Shown: positions 18,551-27,918 of the stretch, one piece after another
Layout of the letters: every line of letters starts with the position of its first letter
Position numbering within the stretch: position 1 is the stretch's first letter
Source of the DNA: an uncultured Clostridium sp.
Lineage (GTDB): Bacteria; Bacillota; Clostridia; Lachnospirales; Lachnospiraceae
DNA: 35,379 nt
Assembly (NCBI GenBank): GCA_947644195.1
Contig: CANRZB010000042.1
Span: 1-35,379, forward strand
Direction of reading: 5' to 3'
The notes under the pieces: model-generated
What the model saw: the letters and a program-made list of their open reading frames with translations, nothing else
Database searches by the model: none
Told to the model about the DNA's origin: nothing
Made by a program: the position numbers and the translations under genes

Positions 18551-18612
18551 TCCTGCTGCTGTGAAATGGTGTCTATCGCAGGTACGGTTATTGCATAAAG
18601 AAATCACTTTGG

Positions 18613-18661
18613 AACTATAGGGGGTTATAGGAAGAGACTATAACCCTCTGTAGTTTTTTTT
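18613..18661 (+). terminator. strong intrinsic terminator
   Basis: An 18-bp stem (18613-18630 with 18638-18655, two G-U pairs) with a 7-nt loop, followed by eight T. It insulates the protease gene from the cysteine region. Confidence 0.9.
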
Positions 18662-18664
18662 GAT

Positions 18665-18714
18665 TAGACAAAGAGCAGAAAAGGAGTTACTATAAACCTA
18701 TCAACCTACTAGGA
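18665..18714 (+). promoter_or_regulatory. promoter with Rrf2-type operator ahead of the tRNA-Cys-like element
   Basis: TAGACA (18665-18670), a 17-bp spacer and TACTAT (18688-18693) form a promoter. Just after the -10 box come AACCTAT, AACCTA and TAGG half-sites (18695-18714). The position and half-sites match the better operators at 23520-23540 and 25077-25097. Repression by the rrf2 product of this window is inferred. Confidence 0.55.
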
Positions 18715-18724
18715 AAATAAAACG

Positions 18725-18794
18725 GATGCCGTGGCCGCAGGAATGGCATAAGCTTGCAAAGCTGAAGTTGTGGGTTCGAGTCCCATCGGTATCG
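18725..18794 (+). tRNA. tRNA-Cys(GCA)-like element in the operon leader
   Basis: Seventy bases fold as a cloverleaf. Acceptor GATGCCG pairs with CGGTATC over 7 positions (one G-U). The D arm is GCC-G...T-GGC with GG in the loop. The anticodon loop TTGCAAA has GCA at 18756-18758 in a 5-bp stem with one A-G mismatch. The T arm is TGGG-TTCGAGT-CCCA. It departs from a normal tRNA-Cys: base 73 is G and not the U needed by cysteinyl-tRNA synthetase, no CCA is encoded, position 14 is not A, and the D loop is short. It lies 31 bp after a regulated promoter and 86 bp before the amidotransferase gene. It could be a divergent tRNA, or a tRNA mimic acting in cis or on cysteine enzymes. Confidence 0.65.
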
Positions 18795-18880
18795 TTTCTG
18801 GTGTTTTTTGAAAAATACTACATGTTGCGATAGGTTGTAGAAACCTGTGATGTGGGTATCGGAAAGGGAGGGTTGCCGTT

Positions 18881-19657
18881 ATGTGTGAATTATTTGGAGT
18901 AAATACTCCCGAAAAAATACCATTAAATCATTTACTGGATGTGTTTTTTTCGCATGGAAACCAGCATCCACATGGATGGGGGATGGCTTTCTTTGATGGA
19001 AATAACACGGTACGGGTGGAAAAACAGGCAGTGAAATCCACAAAAAGTGCGAGACTGCGTGAATATCGCAGACAGCAGATTATGGCAGACCGGATGATTG
19101 CCCATATCCGGCTCGCAACCAAGGGGAATATGGAATATGAGAACTGCCATCCCTTTGTCAGAAAAGATCAGACAGGGCGGATCTGGACACTGGCGCATAA
19201 TGGAACCATATTTGAGGGGGAAATGACGGATCCCTATTTTTATGTGCAGGATGGACAGACGGATAGTGAAAGGATCTTGTACCTGCTTATAGACCGGATG
19301 AATGACAGGTACACAGAAACCGGAAAGCCGCCGGATGCCCCGGCTCGTTTTCGGATTTTGGATGAGATGATTTGCGGGATTGCTGATGGGAATAAACTAA
19401 ATCTGCTGTTTTATGATGGAGAATATTTTTATGTCCATACGAACTGCCGGGACAGCTTGTATTTATCGGAACGGCAGGGAGGATATGTATTTAGCACTGT
19501 CCCATTAGATGGACAGAAATGGAAAGCGCTGCCGTTAAATACCTTATTGGCTTTTCAGGACGGGGAGCTGGTGCAGACCGGGACAGATCACGGATATGAA
19601 TATGCGGAAGATCCTGACAAAATGAGGCTGCTTTTTCTGGATTATTCTACTTTATAG
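18881..19657 (+). CDS. class II glutamine amidotransferase-like hydrolase (EgtC/YafJ type)
   Basis: The product is 258 aa, with GGGAGGG before the ATG. It starts MCELFGVN, so removal of Met would expose the nucleophilic Cys of the Ntn fold. Other markers are HPHGWGMAFF, HIRLATKGN, NCHPFV and LAHNGTIF. It has no synthase domain, so it should act as a stand-alone amidohydrolase like EgtC, which cleaves a gamma-glutamyl amide in ergothioneine synthesis. The next gene makes gamma-glutamyl bonds to cysteine. A role in removing gamma-glutamyl from a thiol adduct is therefore attractive, but no egtB or egtD is visible and the role is inferred. Confidence 0.82.
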   Translation: MCELFGVNTPEKIPLNHLLDVFFSHGNQHPHGWGMAFFDGNNTVRVEKQAVKSTKSARLREYRRQQIMADRMIAHIRLATKGNMEYENCHPFVRKDQTGRIWTLAHNGTIFEGEMTDPYFYVQDGQTDSERILYLLIDRMNDRYTETGKPPDAPARFRILDEMICGIADGNKLNLLFYDGEYFYVHTNCRDSLYLSERQGGYVFSTVPLDGQKWKALPLNTLLAFQDGELVQTGTDHGYEYAEDPDKMRLLFLDYSTL

Positions 19658-19728
19658 GCAGTGTGAGGCGATGCGTTACATCCTTTATCACAAGGTATGC
19701 CGCCAAGGGCGGCGGAATGGAGATTATT

Positions 19729-21045
19729 ATGTTACAGATAGAGAATGCACAGATCAGAGAACATATCATGGATGGCATGTTTGGTTTGGAAAAAGAAAGC
19801 CTGCGGGTGCTGGAGGATGGAACATTTTCCCATACAAGGCAGCCGTTTGAGGATACGGATTTTATTGTCAGGGATTTTTGTGAGAACCAGACAGAAATCA
19901 ATACCAAGGTTCACAGCTCGGCAGAGGCGGCATTACAGGAATTACAGGAACATTATGGCACAATACAGAAAGCAGTATATGCTCTGCCTGTCCGGGAATA
20001 TATCTGGCCGTTTTCCAATCCGCCATATATCAGAAATGAAAATGACATACCAGTGGCAGCTTTTGACGGGCAGGAACAATTTAAGACGATTTACCGGGAT
20101 TATCTGTCAGACAAATATGGGAGATACCGGATGACGTTTTCCGGCATCCATGTGAATTTTTCTTTTTCCGAAGAATTGTTGCGGCATAGTTTTCGGATCC
20201 ATGGCGGCGACAGTTTCCAGGATTATAAAAATAAGCTGTATTTGAAACTTGCCGCTTCACTGGCTGTCTATGGCTGGATACTGACGGCGGTTACGGCGGC
20301 AAGTCCATTGCTCGACAGTTCCTTTGTGGAGAAAGGCGTGTGCGGCGGCGATGTTTTTATGGGGCTTGCATCCGTAAGGTGCAGTGAGCTGGGGTATTGG
20401 AATGATTTCGCCCCGGTGTTTGATTATCAATCCATCGGAGCCTATGCAGACAGTATAGAACAATATGTGCTTCAGGGACTGCTAAAAGCACCGTCAGAAC
20501 TCTATTATCCAATCCGTTTGAAGCCGGCAGGCGAAAACAATCTGGAAAGCCTGAAGAAAAACGGTGTCAATCATATTGAATTGCGGATGTTTGATTTAAA
20601 TCCCTTACGTGCAGAAGGATTGGAAATAAAAGATGTGCTGTTTGCACAATTATTGATGATCTGGCTGTTGTGCAGGCCGGAGGAAGAATTATCGGTCAAG
20701 CATCAGGTACATGCCGTACAGAATTTTAAGAATGCGGCGCATTACGATCTGAAAACCGTGAAAATTGCACTGCCAGACGGCAGGATTTGTTCTGTGGCGC
20801 AGGCCGCCATGAATATCATAGATGAGATGAAAAACTTTTTTGCGCAAATACAGACGGATGCGCAGGAAATTTTGGATTTTCAATATCGAAAATTTGAGGA
20901 TGCAGATAACCGCTATGCCTGGAACATCAGAAAACAGTTCCAGGATGGATTTGTCAGGAAAGGAATGGATCTGGCGATAAAGAGGCAGGAGGAATGTATC
21001 GGCGTACACAGTGGCAGAAAAGAAGAGAGGAGAGGTGTAATATGA
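19729..21045 (+). CDS. gshA: glutamate-cysteine ligase
   Basis: The product is 438 aa from ATG 19729 (GGAG 6-7 bases before); an ATG at 19717 is possible. FGLEKESLRV and DFCENQTEINT match the GshA/GshAB N-terminal ATP-grasp-like fold, followed by WPFSNPP, YGRYRMTFSGIHVNFSF, ASPLLDSSF and HIELRMFDLNP. It joins glutamate and cysteine into gamma-glutamylcysteine. At this length there is no fused glutathione synthetase domain, and no separate gshB is present here, so the final product may be gamma-glutamylcysteine itself. Its stop overlaps the next ATG as ATGA. The unusual N in CENQTE is a change from the more common E/A-Q-L-E pattern. Confidence 0.9.
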   Translation: MLQIENAQIREHIMDGMFGLEKESLRVLEDGTFSHTRQPFEDTDFIVRDFCENQTEINTKVHSSAEAALQELQEHYGTIQKAVYALPVREYIWPFSNPPYIRNENDIPVAAFDGQEQFKTIYRDYLSDKYGRYRMTFSGIHVNFSFSEELLRHSFRIHGGDSFQDYKNKLYLKLAASLAVYGWILTAVTAASPLLDSSFVEKGVCGGDVFMGLASVRCSELGYWNDFAPVFDYQSIGAYADSIEQYVLQGLLKAPSELYYPIRLKPAGENNLESLKKNGVNHIELRMFDLNPLRAEGLEIKDVLFAQLLMIWLLCRPEEELSVKHQVHAVQNFKNAAHYDLKTVKIALPDGRICSVAQAAMNIIDEMKNFFAQIQTDAQEILDFQYRKFEDADNRYAWNIRKQFQDGFVRKGMDLAIKRQEECIGVHSGRKEERRGVI

Positions 21046-22202
21046 TGAGAGAAATAGAGACCAGATGCCTGCATTTGGAGGAGACCGAGGGACGCAGTGA
21101 CCATTATGGGGCGATCAGTTATCCGATTTACCAGACGGCTACCTATGCCCATCCGGGTGTCGGGAAAAGTACGGGGTACGATTATAGCAGGCTGCAGAAC
21201 CCGACCAGAGAACATCTGGAACAGACTGTGGCATCCCTGGAAAATGGCATGGATGCTTTGGCATTATCGACCGGAATGGCCGCCATCACATTAATGATGG
21301 AATTATTTGAACCGGGGGATCATCTGATTGTGGATTCTGATCTCTATGGGGGGAGCATCCGGTTATTTCAGCATATATCAGCCAAAAATGGTATTTCTTT
21401 TTCAAGGGTTGATTGTTACAAAGAAGATGTGGAAACGTATGTGAATGAAAAGACGAAGGCTGTTTTCATCGAGACACCAACAAATCCCATGATGCATGTG
21501 ACCGATATTGCAGCGCTTGCAAAGATCACGAAGAAGCATCGACTTCTGCTCATCGTGGATAATACGTTTCTTTCGCCATATTTTCAAAATCCACTGGAAT
21601 TAGGTGCTGACCTTGTGGTACATAGCGGTTCCAAATACTTGGGCGGCCACAATGACACGCTGGCGGGATTTTTAGTGACGGATCGGGAGGATCTCAGCGA
21701 GAGGCTACGTTTTTTGATAAAGACAACGGGAGCGGGGTTGGCGCCATTTGACTGTTTTCTGCTTCTCCGTGGAATCAAGACTTTGGGGATTCGGATGGAG
21801 AAGGCGCAGGAAAATGCAATACGGATTGCAGAATGGTTGTCTGGGCAGGACGCGGTCACGAGAGTAATTTATCCGGGACTTGCAGAGCATCCGGGACATG
21901 AAATTATGAAAAAACAGGCGAGAGGATTTGGGGCAATGCTGACCTTCCAGTTAAAGAACAAGGAGTTTGCATTGGCAATTTTAGAAAAGGTTAGAATGAT
22001 TAAATTTGCGGAAAGCCTGGGTGGTGTGGAGACGTTAATTACCTATCCGGTCACACAGACGCATGCGGATGTACCGCAGGAAATCCGGGAACGGAATGGG
22101 ATTACGGACAATACCCTGCGCTTGTCGGTGGGCATTGAACATAGTAAAGATCTATTAGGGGAATTGGAGCAGGTATTCCATGCAATCGAAACTGGTTTGT
22201 AG
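21042..22202 (+). CDS. cystathionine gamma-synthase/gamma-lyase family PLP enzyme
   Basis: The product is 386 aa starting at the ATG at 21042, which overlaps the previous stop; GGAGAGGTG precedes it. The start REIETRCLHLEE, the YDYSRLQNPTREHLE segment, GDHLIVDSDLYGG, FIETPTNP, and the PLP lysine K198 in SGSKYLGGHND identify the Cys/Met metabolism PLP family. Sequence alone does not separate the synthase (O-acyl-homoserine plus cysteine) from the lyase (cystathionine or homocysteine to cysteine). The setting beside cysteine synthase and gshA favours cysteine supply by transsulfuration. Confidence 0.9.
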   Translation: MMREIETRCLHLEETEGRSDHYGAISYPIYQTATYAHPGVGKSTGYDYSRLQNPTREHLEQTVASLENGMDALALSTGMAAITLMMELFEPGDHLIVDSDLYGGSIRLFQHISAKNGISFSRVDCYKEDVETYVNEKTKAVFIETPTNPMMHVTDIAALAKITKKHRLLLIVDNTFLSPYFQNPLELGADLVVHSGSKYLGGHNDTLAGFLVTDREDLSERLRFLIKTTGAGLAPFDCFLLLRGIKTLGIRMEKAQENAIRIAEWLSGQDAVTRVIYPGLAEHPGHEIMKKQARGFGAMLTFQLKNKEFALAILEKVRMIKFAESLGGVETLITYPVTQTHADVPQEIRERNGITDNTLRLSVGIEHSKDLLGELEQVFHAIETGL

Positions 22203-22249
22203 GATAGTAGTGCATGGATTTATAGAAAGATAGGATGGAGGCTGGGAAG

Positions 22250-23431
22250 ATGGAACGACATTTAGATTTTGATACGGTAATTGATCGAAGGAATACGAAA
22301 TGCCTGAAATATGATTTTGCAAAGGCGCGCGGCATGCCGGAGGATGTTTTGCCGATGTGGGTGGCGGATATGGATTTTAAGACTTCTTCCTATGTGGAAG
22401 ATGCCCTTGCAGAATGGGCGAGATTCGGCATTTTTGGATATAGTGAAGTACAGACGCCTTATTTTGAAATTGTCCGGGATTGGATGAAAGAGCATCATGG
22501 CTGGGCGCCACAGGAAGAGTGGCTGGTTAAGACGCCAGGAGTCGTCTTTGCGCTGGCGATGTCGGTCAGGGCATATACGGAGCCGGGCGATGCCGTGCTG
22601 ATCCAGCAGCCCGTTTATTATCCGTTTGCAGAAGTAGTCAGGGATAATGGCAGGAACGTGGTAAGCAGTGATCTGGTACTGGGGGAGGATCGGAGATACC
22701 ACATGGATTTTGAAGATTTGGAGAAAAAAATTAGGGAGAAAAAGATTCGCTTATTTTTGTTGTGCAGTCCGCATAATCCAACAGGAAGAGTGTGGACGGG
22801 AGAGGAACTGATCCGTCTGGGGGATCTCTGTGTCAAATATGGGGTAACGGTGGTGAGTGATGAGATCCATCATGATATTATTTTCCATGGGAAACATCAT
22901 GTATTTGCCGATCTGAAAGAGGAATACCAGGAGATCAGCGTGATCTGTACCTCTCCCAGCAAGACATTTAACCTGGCGGGCATGATGCTTTCTAATATCT
23001 TTATTCCAAATCAGGCACTGCGCAGAAAATTTAGGAAGGAACTGGATGCGGCAGGGATCAGCCAGCTTGGTATTATGGGACTGGCAGCCTGTGAGGCGGC
23101 ATATACGAAAGGCGGGGAATGGTATCAGGCGATGCTCTCCTATGTAAAAGACAATATTGCGTTTACCAGACAATTTGTGGAAGAACATATCCCCGGTATG
23201 GCTATGGTGCAGCTGGAGGGAACCTATTTGGTTTGGTTGGATTGCAGAGGGTTGGGCTGGAATGTGGATGATCTGGACCGCCTGATTACCCATCGGGCAA
23301 AATTATGGTTGGATCGTGGCGGGATGTTTGGAAAGAGCGGCCGAGGATTTCAGAGAATGAATGTGGCATGTCCTAGGAGTGTCCTAAAAGAGGCTTTGCG
23401 GAGGCTGGAAGAACTCTGTAGAAGCAGGTAA
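22250..23431 (+). CDS. patB: MalY/PatB-type PLP C-S lyase (cystathionine beta-lyase-like)
   Basis: The product is 393 aa. The ATG at 22250 is preferred over 22235 because MERHLDFDTVIDRRNT is the family's normal start and GGAGGCTGGG precedes it. DVLPMWVADMDF, CSPHNPTGRVW, VSDEIHHDI and the PLP lysine K238 in TSPSKTFNLAG are typical. These enzymes cleave cystathionine or cysteine to thiol, pyruvate and ammonia, and can produce sulfide. It is 47 bp after the previous gene and probably in the same transcript. As both a C-S bond maker/lyase and this beta-lyase are present, the operon can move sulfur in both directions. Confidence 0.9.
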   Translation: MERHLDFDTVIDRRNTKCLKYDFAKARGMPEDVLPMWVADMDFKTSSYVEDALAEWARFGIFGYSEVQTPYFEIVRDWMKEHHGWAPQEEWLVKTPGVVFALAMSVRAYTEPGDAVLIQQPVYYPFAEVVRDNGRNVVSSDLVLGEDRRYHMDFEDLEKKIREKKIRLFLLCSPHNPTGRVWTGEELIRLGDLCVKYGVTVVSDEIHHDIIFHGKHHVFADLKEEYQEISVICTSPSKTFNLAGMMLSNIFIPNQALRRKFRKELDAAGISQLGIMGLAACEAAYTKGGEWYQAMLSYVKDNIAFTRQFVEEHIPGMAMVQLEGTYLVWLDCRGLGWNVDDLDRLITHRAKLWLDRGGMFGKSGRGFQRMNVACPRSVLKEALRRLEELCRSR

Positions 23432-23479: not shown

Positions 23480-23540
23480 TTGACAAATCTTGGAACTGTG
23501 AATATAATAGGAACTCATAAACCTACTACATAAGTAGGTT
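23480..23540 (+). promoter_or_regulatory. cysK promoter with perfect Rrf2-type operator
   Basis: A textbook sigma-A promoter (TTGACA 23480-23485, 17-bp spacer, TATAAT 23503-23508) is followed after 11 bp by a palindrome: AACCTACT (23520-23527), 5-base centre, AGTAGGTT (23533-23540). The operator covers the likely transcription start, so bound repressor would block cysK. The 140-bp leader up to the cysK start shows no other gene. Confidence 0.75.
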
Positions 23541-23660: not shown

Positions 23661-24593
23661 ATGAGTCAAATAAAAGAAAGTGCATTGGAGTTGATTGGAA
23701 ACACACCGTTATTAAAACTGAATCGTTACAGCAGTCAGGCAGGAGTAAAAGATGCTGTACTTCTTGCGAAATTGGAGTATCTGAATCCGGCGGGATCTGT
23801 GAAAGACCGTATCGCCCTTGCCATGATTGAAGATGCGGAAAAGAAAGGAATTTTAAAGGAAGGTGCAACCATCATTGAACCAACCAGTGGTAATACGGGA
23901 ATCGGCCTGGCAGCAGCTGCAGCGGCAAAGGGATATCATGCCATTCTGACGCTGCCGGATACCATGAGTGTGGAGCGGAGGAATCTGTTAAAGGCATATG
24001 GCGCTGAACTGGTTCTGACAGAAGGGGCAAAAGGGATGAAGGGTGCGATCGCTAAAGCAGAAGAACTCCAACAGGAGATTGATGGAGCAGTGATCCTGGG
24101 GCAATTTGTGAATCCGGCAAACCCGGCAGTGCATAAGGCGACAACGGGGCCGGAAATCTGGGAGCAGACCGATGGAAACGTGGATATTTTTGTTGCCGGG
24201 GTTGGAACTGGTGGAACGATCACCGGTGTTGGAGAATATCTCAAGGAGCAAAATCCAGATGTGAAAATTGTGGCCGTGGAACCGGCGGACAGCCAGGTAT
24301 TGGGAAAAGGAACACCGGGACCACATAAGATTCAGGGAATAGGAGCAGGTTTTGTGCCAGATACCTTAAATACAGAGATCTACGATGAAATTATCGCCAT
24401 TGAAAATGAGGATGCCTTTGCAGAAGGCAGGGCATTTGCAGTGAGCGAAGGGATCCTAGTGGGAATTTCTTCGGGTGCAGCGTTAAAGGCGGCCGGGATT
24501 TTAGCAGACAGACCGGAAAACAAAGGAAAGACCATCGTGGTACTGCTTCCTGATTCCGGGGACAGATATTTGTCTACAGCGTTATTTGCATAG
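23661..24593 (+). CDS. cysK: cysteine synthase A (O-acetylserine sulfhydrylase)
   Basis: The product is 310 aa, the standard length, with AAAGGAG before the [16 protein letters not shown], the PLP lysine K48 in NPAGSVKDR, the substrate loop [22 protein letters not shown] for the phosphate cup, [13 protein letters not shown] and the C-terminal [11 protein letters not shown] are all present. It makes cysteine from O-acetylserine and sulfide. No serine acetyltransferase gene lies nearby. It has its own operator and is convergent with rrf2. Confidence 0.96.
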
Positions 24594-24616: not shown

Positions 24617-25018
24617 TTATTTTTCAGCCAGTTCTGCAAGGGTAATTCCATAAAAGAAATCATGGGATAACTGGTTGAATTTCTTCCACATCTCTATGGT
24701 AGGACAGATCCTTTCCCTGTCACAACGTTCTGCATCCGGCAGCAGGCAGGATACAGGGGCAAGCTGCTCCCCCACAGCTTCTAGGATCTCACCTGCCGAA
24801 TAATTGGCGGCACTGCGTAAAAGCTGGTAGCCGCCTCCTTTTCCCCGAACTCCACGGATCAGTTTGTGTCTTACCAGTTCTTTGATAATAATTTCCATAT
24901 ATTTTTCCGATATTCCCTGTCTTTCCGAAATATCTTTTAGTGGGGTGTAGCTGTCTTTTTCCTGTCCGGCCAGGTCAATCATCAGGCGCAGGGCATACCT
25001 TCCTCTGGTTGAAATCAT
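24617..25018 (-). CDS. Rrf2-family transcription regulator (CymR/IscR-like)
   Basis: The product is 133 aa. I start at 25018 (MISTRGRYALRLMIDLA), which follows AAAGGAGGG; the frame is open 12 codons further but the family begins here. The winged-helix part includes DISERQGISEKYMEIIIKELVRHKLIRGVRGKGGGYQL. The C-terminal region has three cysteines (C-x7-C-x5-C) like the [2Fe-2S] cysteines of IscR; B. subtilis CymR has none. It may thus sense an Fe-S cluster as well as, or instead of, a cysteine enzyme partner. Operators near rrf2, cysK and the tRNA-Cys promoter suggest that it is the local regulator and controls itself. Confidence 0.88.
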   Translation of the reverse strand: MISTRGRYALRLMIDLAGQEKDSYTPLKDISERQGISEKYMEIIIKELVRHKLIRGVRGKGGGYQLLRSAANYSAGEILEAVGEQLAPVSCLLPDAERCDRERICPTIEMWKKFNQLSHDFFYGITLAELAEK

Positions 25019-25039
25019 GAGATCCCTCCTTTTTTTCAA

Positions 25040-25103
25040 AGTATAGCGTATCATAGAGAAAAAAACAATACCTATTAACCTATTGACTTGATAGGTTTAT
25101 AAT
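25040..25103. promoter_or_regulatory. divergent rrf2/lysR promoters with shared operator
   Basis: The operator is AACCTAT (25077-25083), 7-base centre, ATAGGTT (25091-25097). It exactly fills the spacer of a plus-strand promoter (TTAACC 25075-25080, TATAAT 25098-25103), so the LysR gene should be repressed. On the minus strand, TTGTTT (25068-25063), 17 bp and TATACT (25045-25040) form an rrf2 promoter; the operator lies just upstream of its -35. Confidence 0.65.
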
Positions 25104-26197: not shown

Positions 26198-26227
26198 CAT
26201 TCCATAGTACAGGGGAGGTAATTATTG

Positions 26228-27412
26228 ATGAATCGTTTGATTTATTTAGATAATGCAGCGACGACAAAACTTGACACAGAAGTATTCCATGCGATGGTTC
26301 CTTATTTTCAGGAGGATTATGGGAATCCTTCTTCCATTTATAGTTTTGCAGAAAAAGGAAAAAAAGCAGTTGATGATGCCAGGGAGCAGGTGGCGAAACT
26401 GATCCACGCTGCACCAGAAGAAATATATTTTACGGGCAGTGGAAGCGAGGCTGATAACTGGGCGTTGAAAGCGACAGTGGAGGCGTATGCGGGAAAAGGG
26501 AGTCATATCATAACCACTAAGATAGAGCACCATGCGATTTTGCATACCTGTGAATATTTGGAGAAACAGGGATGTGAAATTACTTATTTGGCTGTAGATG
26601 AAGACGGGAAAATTAATTTGGAGGATTTAAAGGCTGCCATTCGTCCTGACACGATATTGATTTCAATCATGATGGCAAATAATGAGATTGGAACCATTCA
26701 GGAAGTGGCTGAAATTGGGAAGATTGCAAAGGAACATGGGGTGTTGTTCCATACAGATGCGGTACAGGCATATGGACATATTCCCATTTATGTAGATGCA
26801 ATGAATATTGACATGCTTTCCGCAAGTGCCCATAAACTTTATGGTCCCAAGGGAGTTGGGATGTTATATATCCGTAAGGGGATTAAAATCCGCTCTTTCA
26901 TACATGGTGGCGCACAGGAGAGAAACCGGCGTGCAGGAACCTTAAATGTGCCAGGGATTGTCGGTTTTGGAAAGGCGGCGGAACTGGCGGAAAAGACAAT
27001 GGAGCAGAGGATGGCGAAAGAATCTGCTATAAGGGATGAATTGATAGAAAGAATATTGGCGGAGATTCCTTTTTCCAGACTGAATGGACATAGGACAGAC
27101 AGGCTGCCGGGGAATGTTAATTTTTGTTTTCGCTTTATTGAAGGAGAATCCATGTTAATTCTATTAGACCAACTTGGAATTTGTGCTTCCAGTGGTTCTG
27201 CCTGTACCTCTGGTTCCCTGGATCCGTCCCATGTGTTGCTTGCCATCGGCTTGCCGCATGAAATTGCACATGGTTCCCTGCGACTTTCCTTATCATCGGA
27301 AACAACCAGGGAAGAAATTAATTTTGTGGTAGAAGAATTAAAACAATTGATAGAGAGATTGAGAAATATGTCACCGTTATATGAAGATTTTATCAAGAAT
27401 TCTTGTAAATAA
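26228..27412 (+). CDS. cysteine desulfurase (IscS/NifS family)
   Basis: The product is 394 aa; the ATG at 26228 follows GGGGAGG. LIYLDNAATTKLD, TGSGSEADNWAL, the PLP lysine K203 in SASAHKLYGPKG, and the mobile persulfide-forming C326 in SGSACTSGSLDPSHVL are intact. It removes sulfur from cysteine and delivers it for Fe-S cluster or other sulfur transfer. The following gene is its scaffold partner. A short duplicated tail with AAGAATTCTTG sequence is found in the last codons and in the gap after it (27398-27452). The pair gives cysteine, made by the upstream genes, a direct outlet. Confidence 0.93.
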   Translation: MNRLIYLDNAATTKLDTEVFHAMVPYFQEDYGNPSSIYSFAEKGKKAVDDAREQVAKLIHAAPEEIYFTGSGSEADNWALKATVEAYAGKGSHIITTKIEHHAILHTCEYLEKQGCEITYLAVDEDGKINLEDLKAAIRPDTILISIMMANNEIGTIQEVAEIGKIAKEHGVLFHTDAVQAYGHIPIYVDAMNIDMLSASAHKLYGPKGVGMLYIRKGIKIRSFIHGGAQERNRRAGTLNVPGIVGFGKAAELAEKTMEQRMAKESAIRDELIERILAEIPFSRLNGHRTDRLPGNVNFCFRFIEGESMLILLDQLGICASSGSACTSGSLDPSHVLLAIGLPHEIAHGSLRLSLSSETTREEINFVVEELKQLIERLRNMSPLYEDFIKNSCK

Positions 27413-27480
27413 AAAATTTATGTAAGAAAGAATTCTTGTAAATCAAGAATTTAGGGAGATCAAGAATGGGAGGAAGACAG

Positions 27481-27918
27481 ATGTATAGTGAAAAAGTAAT
27501 GGATCATTTTAATCATCCAAGGAATGTGGGGGAAATTGAAAACGCCAGTGGAGTGGGAACGGTAGGAAATGCAAAGTGCGGGGATATTATGCGGATGTAT
27601 TTCGAGATTGACCAGCAGGGCGTGATCCGGGATGTTAAATTTAAGACGTTTGGCTGCGGAGCTGCCATCGCAACCAGCAGCATGGCAACAGAACTGGTAA
27701 AGGGAAAAACGGTACAAGAAGCGCTAACGGTTACCAATCAGGCCGTTATGGAAGCGTTAGACGGACTGCCTCCTGTGAAAGTGCATTGTTCGCTTTTGGC
27801 AGAAGAAGCAATTCATGCAGCCCTTTGGGATTATGCAGAGAAGAATCATATTGTGATTGATGGATTGGAAAGGCCGGTCAATGATATTGCTGAAAAAGTA
27901 GAGGAAGAAGAATATTGA
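27481..27918 (+). CDS. Fe-S cluster scaffold protein (IscU/NifU N-terminal type)
   Basis: The product is 145 aa. I start at 27481 (MYSEKVMDHFNHPRNVG), behind GGGAGGAAG; an ATG at 27466 is possible. The three cluster cysteines are C33 in GNAKCGDI, C59 in TFGCGAAIA and C103 in VHCSLLAEEA, with the conserved Asp after the first. A short acidic C-terminus (EKVEEEEY) ends the protein. It should assemble clusters with the desulfurase encoded 68 bp upstream. The gene faces the lipoprotein gene that ends 2 bp away. Confidence 0.93.
   Translation: MYSEKVMDHFNHPRNVGEIENASGVGTVGNAKCGDIMRMYFEIDQQGVIRDVKFKTFGCGAAIATSSMATELVKGKTVQEALTVTNQAVMEALDGLPPVKVHCSLLAEEAIHAALWDYAEKNHIVIDGLERPVNDIAEKVEEEEY

Follow-up and report, generated by a model that had tools for sequence, protein, structure and literature searches.

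A tRNA-Cys-like RNA family with a purine at position 73 among sulfur-metabolism genes of Lachnospiraceae

The thrS operator of Escherichia coli controls the synthetase's own gene through anticodon-like hairpins. In Bacillus cereus, tRNA-Other is a tRNA-like element within a larger iron-regulated RNA, and its role apparently lies outside translation (PMC3399842). SepRS-SepCysS operons carry a tRNA-Cys which serves RNA-dependent cysteine synthesis (PMC5424206, PMC8762117). The element described in this study is filed with the pseudo-tRNAs, and tRNA-Other is its nearest precedent. No description of a tRNA-Cys-like family of this kind was found in the literature, with most subscription papers outside the scope of the search. 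Since ARAGORN labels 21 of the 33 copies as tRNA-Cys and the general tRNA model of Rfam matches as well, a conserved and apparently non-decoding RNA can be overlooked under a routine label.

The element and its operon in the window

The window, i.e. the whole stretch of 35,379 nucleotides that was analysed, comes from an uncultured Clostridium sp. (Lachnospiraceae). An earlier note on its sequence had described a tRNA-Cys(GCA)-like cloverleaf which lacks U73, an encoded CCA, and a normal D loop, and this description proved correct. ARAGORN calls tRNA-Cys(GCA) at 18725-18794 on the forward strand, and the Rfam tRNA family RF00005 covers the same span with 47.8 bits against a gathering threshold of 29. 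The acceptor stem reads GATGCCG/CGGTATC and is followed by G73 and by TTTC in place of CCA, the D arm (GCC/GGC) closes a loop of 8 nt (GCAGGAAT), and the anticodon stem has an A.G mismatch at its second pair. Because U33 and GCA are kept in a normal loop of 7 nt, this copy may still decode; that it does not would follow from the behaviour of the family. An ordinary tRNA-Cys gene with U73, of the kind which the earlier note had proposed to count, lies elsewhere in the same genome (L008). The features of the locus are as follows.

18611..18657 (+): intrinsic-terminator-like hairpin with a T run, 3' of the upstream M48 peptidase ORF
18665..18693 (+): sigma-70-like promoter, TAGACA-17-TACTAT; one found against 0.6 expected in shuffles of the region
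18697..18713 (+): exact CCTA-N9-TAGG palindrome, predicted as a probable Rrf2-family operator near the transcription start
18725..18794 (+): tRNA-Cys-like element; 7-bp acceptor, 3-bp D stem, GCA loop, 5-bp T stem, G73, CCA absent
18881..19657 (+): class II glutamine amidotransferase (GATase_4); resemblance to EgtC weak, below its cut-off
19663..21045 (+): glutamate-cysteine ligase (GshA family); coordinates are those of the ORF, and translation may begin further downstream
20994..22202 (+): PLP enzyme of Cys/Met metabolism (cystathionine lyase/synthase family); of the matches listed (25 families), none reaches an equivalog cut-off
22235..23431 (+): PatB family C-S lyase, above cut-off
23522..23538 (+): exact CCTA-N9-TAGG palindrome, cysK promoter
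23661..24593 (+): cysteine synthase CysK, above cut-off
24617..25054 (-): divergent regulator of the Rrf2 family; above the superfamily cut-off, below the equivalog cut-offs of CymR and IscR
25079..25095 (+): exact CCTA-N9-TAGG palindrome, rrf2 promoter

The exact palindrome occurs three times in the window, at the promoters of the element/gshA operon, cysK, and rrf2, so that the Rrf2-type sites which the earlier note had seen at the promoter of the element are found in exact form and are repeated at two further promoters; the first copy ends 11 bases 5' of the element. When one mismatch is allowed, nine matches are found in the window against 9.1 expected, which is not above chance. Support for the predicted Rrf2-type control of the operon therefore comes from the three exact copies and their places. 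The gamma-glutamylcysteine and cysteine context was likewise seen correctly in that GATase, GshA, the Cys/Met PLP enzyme, and PatB are present; gshA, however, does not define the context of the element, being one of several sulfur-related settings in which it occurs. A second copy of GGTATCG is present at 18855-18861, as is the AGGTT/AACCT hairpin, in which AACCT ends at 18846. Downstream of the Rrf2 and LysR regulators, genes for a NifS-type cysteine desulfurase and a NifU-type scaffold lie at 26225-27918.

A discrete RNA family and its departures from tRNA-Cys

BLAST against 250 genomes of the family gave matches in 65. Eight of these were strong, namely the window and those in seven other genomes, and the weaker matches which were inspected are ordinary tRNAs. 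A covariance model (R1) was built from ten copies, aligned without gaps, which score 92.1-96.9 bits, against at most 49.3 bits for ordinary tRNAs in the searched loci. Among 397 genomes of the family (G000 included), 16 scored 90.6-97.9 bits, followed by G147 with 60.3 and then by values of at most 54.9. Searches at the level of the order (295 genomes) and of the class (391 genomes) added G662, G600, and G543, and G946, respectively, the last from another family, and a pattern scan of public genome contigs returned four stretches, two of them true copies (Lachnospiraceae C77 and an uncultured bacterium). The search samples overlap, and in the three large searches the best 12-17 first-look candidates per genome were scored. 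In total, 33 copies were collected, one found in each of 31 genomes and two in public contigs, with R1 scores of 70-98 bits for family members; as the best 12-17 candidates were scored, a diverged second copy in a genome could escape. G147, a borderline relative with a different core, is a possible 34th copy.

The element is a member of a discrete RNA family, which was found in a minority of Lachnospiraceae and lies among sulfur-metabolism genes. It occurs in 12 of 29 genomes of genus g154 and in four of five of genus g15; the other genome of the window's genus among the 397 (G192) has no copy. In family f50, its presence in one of 11 genomes suggests perhaps an import, and the G946 copy, the only one among the 11 genomes of its family, was perhaps imported together with a nif-like cluster and may be decaying. 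Plasmids searched for the element and viral contigs searched with two patterns gave no match. In an Rfam scan of 22 other loci, including that of G147, RF00005 alone reached its gathering threshold (34.6-53 bits), and no riboswitch or other family did.

Position 73 is a purine in all 33 copies, and in 34 of 34 with G147 (24 A, 10 G); the U73 of a functional tRNA-Cys is thus missing throughout. In ordinary tRNA-Cys genes, T73 is found in 19 of 19. G147 and 17 of the 31 element genomes supplied these genes, with two in G297; 20 element genomes were examined for them, of which G276 and G662 gave no BLAST match and G279 a match that is not tRNA-Cys. An encoded CCA is absent from all 33 copies. U stands at position 74 or 75 in 33 of 34, which suits RNase Z. 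The A.G mismatch at the second anticodon-stem pair is found in 33 of 33 copies, and A26-U27-A28/G42-A43-A44 could be read as loop-E-like.

The anticodon loop has seven bases in 22 of the 33 copies: 18 with U33 and GCA (the window included), two with C33 (G153, G112), one with ACA (G365), and one with GAA (G946). In the remaining 11, all from g154 (11 of its 12 element-bearing genomes), a longer stem and an invariant GGCA tetraloop replace the anticodon loop, and ARAGORN calls none of these a tRNA-Cys. Overall, decoding features are lost in 15 of 33 copies, 11 by the tetraloop and four by the loss of U33 or GCA, and GCA itself is retained in the loop of 31. In the G946 copy (L109:5995-6064), U8, the second G of the D loop, and T54 are lost along with GCA.

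When the ten copies are aligned on the cloverleaf, all pairs form in all sequences and seven pairs vary on both sides. The conservation and covariation in relatives which the earlier note had proposed to examine are seen in 29 aligned copies, where 99.8% of 551 cloverleaf cells pair, eight of 19 pairs vary on both sides, and sliding the pair partners abolishes the covariation signal. In the long stem of g154, the three variable pairs all covary (eight distinct sequences, no broken cell in the arm). Since every change in these pairs is compensated, the g154 RNA is under selection even without an anticodon loop. Folded alone, single elements do not have unusual energies relative to shuffles (z from -1.3 to -2.1); for G600 and G543, energy minimisation returns the cloverleaf, which for G153 comes close to the minimum, and for the window copy, G946, and the ordinary tRNA-Cys used in comparison the minimum is another fold. 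The acceptor stem and T arm are kept across the family. Therefore, at the family level a tRNA-like fold is conserved without decoding features, as in a pseudo-tRNA, and by extension the window copy would belong to the same class.

Operon contexts and control of the transcripts

A sulfur-type operon lies 3' of the element in 31 of the 33 copies. Contexts were assigned by scanning representative proteins against protein families, and the others by BLAST clusters or short sequence markers. The genes 3' of the element are the following.

GATase-gshA: 3 loci
nifB: 12 loci; nifX and nifH come next wherever the stretch is long enough to tell
nifH and nitrogenase-like subunits: 1 locus (G946)
yezD, then metK: 12 loci, all g154; no metK marker was seen in the short stretch of G1044
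metK and ABC transporter: 1 locus
M20 amidohydrolase and a match to aminothiazoline-carboxylate hydrolase just below cut-off: 1 locus
cysK-JAB-ThiS/ThiF-encapsulin: 1 locus

In the nifB-type loci, a cysK-like gene follows nifH in eight, and nitrogenase-like subunits are present in most of the long ones; a methylthio-alkane reductase is one possibility for the nitrogenase-like cluster behind the element. Nitrogenase-like nifB-nifX-nifH-nifDK clusters with an internal cysK-like gene, beside cysK, are seen in L090, L093, L094, L096, L097, and L101, and several nitrogenase-like clusters 3' of the element also adjoin the small protein DUF2292/YezD. Behind the G365 element and the G147 relative (L104 and L105, same BLAST clusters), JAB and ThiS/ThiF-rhodanese genes come first and then the gene for a family 2A encapsulin shell. 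The context is not cysS for any of the 33 copies.

No sulfur gene follows the element in two genomes. In G662 an HD domain gene comes after the element, which starts 5 nt behind an ABC transporter gene, and in G339 gshA, GATase, and cysK precede the element. Both copies (L106:5916-5985 and L091:5847-5916) have fully paired folds, and compensated changes in the acceptor stem of L106 suggest that the RNA itself is under selection.

Since Rrf2-type palindromes and Cys-rich leader ORFs occur upstream, cysteine supply plausibly controls several element transcripts, by two routes. The palindromes start 28 bases 5' of the element in the window and in G150, and one with a single mismatch lies upstream of the element in L005. 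All 12 g154 loci have an exact or one-mismatch palindrome 254-311 bases 5' of the element, with the match in G1052 off the usual register. No palindrome was found within 450 bases of the element in L003 and the nif-type loci.

A Cys-rich leader ORF with a hairpin is present in all 12 element-bearing g154 loci, and the hairpin ends 1-5 bases 5' of the element in ten of them and 12 and 39 bases 5' in the other two. Among g154 yezD loci without the element, the leader ORF is found in one of eight (G1042; Fisher p = 1e-4 against 12 of 12, relatedness ignored). Such ORFs also occur before cysK in three nif-type loci (G182, G112, and G334), and upstream of cysK they were noted in L101, L103, and L092. 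In L108 and other g154 loci, the Cys-rich ORFs lie 172-230 bases 5' of the element, as for ribosome-mediated Cys-codon attenuation, a mechanism which has been proposed before cysS in Rhodobacterales (PMC8632094).

Possible modes of action and comparison with known systems

The earlier note had offered a translational switch in which the 5' acceptor strand pairs with either copy of GGTATCG. This is not conserved: an unusual partner in the leader was found in one of 29 loci (p < 0.05; median p 0.675), and in the window p is 0.11 by letter shuffles. Of the 33 loci, G339 (no start codon found) and G543, G1051, and G1057 (wrong start assigned) were left out, and G279, given a wrong start (+1), is counted among the 29 with p = 1. 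With the switch in one of 29 loci and leaders down to 21 nt, no conserved riboswitch or attenuator platform was recognised behind the element, platforms of other types being judged by eye.

For T-boxes, 20 cysS-region stretches were scanned. Four T-boxes were found, each before cysE of an element genome (G276, G278, G047, and G662), and the other 16 stretches, several of them short, have none at the gathering threshold. All four carry TGGA, the partner of U73 and not of A73 or G73, and TGC is visible in the specifier region of two (L162 and L164; the others are L169 and L176). This suggests that the purine at position 73 keeps the RNA from charging by CysRS and from the cell's own Cys T-boxes. 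On the minus strand of L110, the ordinary tRNA-Cys locus of G150, a T-box-like pattern about 112 bases in has TGGT, which would fit A73. Near cysS of G147, a Clostridiales-1 RNA is present (RF01699, 136 bits; L171:2341-2506).

The reading tentatively preferred in this study is that, under sulfur limitation, the element gives rise to an uncharged tRNA-Cys mimic which RNase P and RNase Z excise and which acts in trans; it appears to be the best reading because a cis-acting switch finds no support and a T-box effector role is disfavoured. The tRNA mimic which the earlier note had named as an alternative to a tRNA-Cys gains support, as do the departures from tRNA-Cys which it had listed. The element would then be a gene for a small tRNA-Cys-derived RNA inside sulfur-limitation transcripts. 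A shortage of cysteine or sulfur would switch the operon on, in the window through the Rrf2-type operator and in g154 also through the Cys-rich leader ORF and terminator, and the RNA would be made along with it. Conservation of the acceptor stem, the T arm, and U74/75 makes excision by RNase P and RNase Z probable. The purine 73 of the RNA should prevent both charging by CysRS and a match with the Cys T-boxes of the cell. The mimic, with GCA at the tip of an L-shaped body, would act in trans, and a first guess for its partner may be CysRS or another factor that binds tRNA-Cys.

There is no indication for CysRS in particular, as a survey of 24 genomes (20 element carriers, G147, and three genomes that lack the element) gave exactly one cysS above cut-off in every genome and no second one which could be a paralogue. 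Mimicry of the acceptor stem of the cell's own tRNA-Cys was also rejected outside g154, where the element shares 4.6 of 14 letters with it against 5.3 for others (14 genomes, two of which, G150 and G339, entered with the register shifted by one base); in g154, 12-13 of 14 letters agree in three genomes. Since one copy was found per genome and the operons differ between genomes, the element may be an RNA gene riding in whichever sulfur operon is available, and in the window there is a single element though the palindrome is common to three promoters. A single copy in each genome could also result from inheritance of a cis-element together with its operon.

The strongest rival, possible though on the unlikely side, is a cis-acting processing or stability element: cleavage by RNase P and RNase Z would leave a 3' hairpin on the upstream cistron and give the sulfur mRNA a short, clean 5' end, freed of a leader with stalled ribosomes. 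Its strength lies in a hairpin that is more stable than those of letter shuffles (p up to 0.05) within 90 nt 5' of the element in 26 of 34 loci, G147 included (12 of 12 in g154 and 11 of 13 nif-type loci), which lacks a T run in G112, G297, G278, and G1061. The kept acceptor stem, T arm, and U74/75 also agree with this rival, and in g154 the start codon is 21-36 nt downstream. However, an invariant D arm, core, and GCA would be needless for processing, the window element has its own promoter beyond the terminator of the upstream gene, and the folds of G662 and G339 are fully paired though no sulfur gene follows.

Rather improbable is a cis-acting operator, in which CysRS or another protein would bind the tRNA-like leader and block translation until uncharged tRNA-Cys competes, in the way that ThrRS acts on thrS. 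The position of the element in a 5' leader, GCA at the tip in 31 of 33 copies even where the loop is rebuilt, and a purine 73 which should prevent charging all agree with it; but the start codon lies anywhere from 21 to about 147 nt behind the element, no conserved leader sequence was seen downstream of the element, a single operon per genome was found with it, and in G662 it lies directly behind a transporter gene.

That the element is an extra tRNA-Cys isoacceptor, under sulfur control and used in translation, is distinctly improbable. The ARAGORN labels and the 18 copies with U33 and GCA are what such a tRNA would have, but U73 is found in none of the 33 copies, and ordinary tRNA-Cys is present in 17 of 20 element genomes examined and in G147. 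For the family, the special tRNA-Cys suggested in the earlier note is unlikely, given that the anticodon loop is missing from 11 copies and that four more have lost U33 or GCA (two with C33, and one each with ACA and GAA). A permanently uncharged effector that would switch on Cys T-boxes in trans, for which the elbow, acceptor, T arm, and mostly kept GCA and the precedent of tRNA-Other, tested with a Trp T-box (PMC3399842), could be cited, is least probable of all, as the TGGA of all four cysE T-boxes is mismatched to A73 and G73.

To return to the trans-acting mimic, the element may take part in the response to cysteine shortage. In g154, where it lies directly behind a putative Cys-codon attenuator, the mimic could lower charging, so that stalling on the leader, and with it read-through, would increase and yield more mimic. 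The wider proposal, that these are previously unrecognised tRNA-derived riboregulators in which a purine-73 uncharged mimic is made at cysteine or sulfur shortage and acts in trans on tRNA-Cys or CysRS, with positive feedback in g154, is doubtful when taken as a whole. The series within g154 (C33 loop, tetraloop, element absent) amounts to a natural experiment in the retention of tRNA features after decoding has been abandoned, and the element is a testable link between tRNA shape, cysteine shortage, and the control of gshA-type, metK, and nitrogenase-like sulfur genes.

Compared with ordinary tRNA-Cys (RF00005), the element shares the cloverleaf, the T loop, and, in most copies, GCA; it differs in a D loop of the GCWGGAAT type against AAGUGGUAA, and in purine 73, the A.G mismatch, the absence of CCA, and the tetraloop variants. 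Like the thrS operator, it resembles a tRNA, lies in an mRNA leader, and is linked to the matching amino acid; unlike it, the element is a full cloverleaf before metabolic operons and not before a synthetase gene. T-box leaders also link tRNA charging to cysteine genes, and ordinary ones precede cysE in four element genomes; however, a T-box leader binds tRNA, whereas the element is itself tRNA-shaped. With the SepRS-SepCysS operons it has in common a tRNA-Cys gene placed with sulfur genes, but those tRNAs serve RNA-dependent cysteine synthesis, a different pathway (PMC5424206, PMC8762117), and neither SepRS nor SepCysS is among the genes annotated at the element loci. Like the element, tRNA-Other is tRNA-like, lies within a larger stress-regulated RNA, and is apparently non-translational (PMC3399842); it has a Trp anticodon and is under Fur/iron control, whereas the element is Cys-like, is known in 33 copies, lies in sulfur operons, and has its loop rebuilt in one genus.
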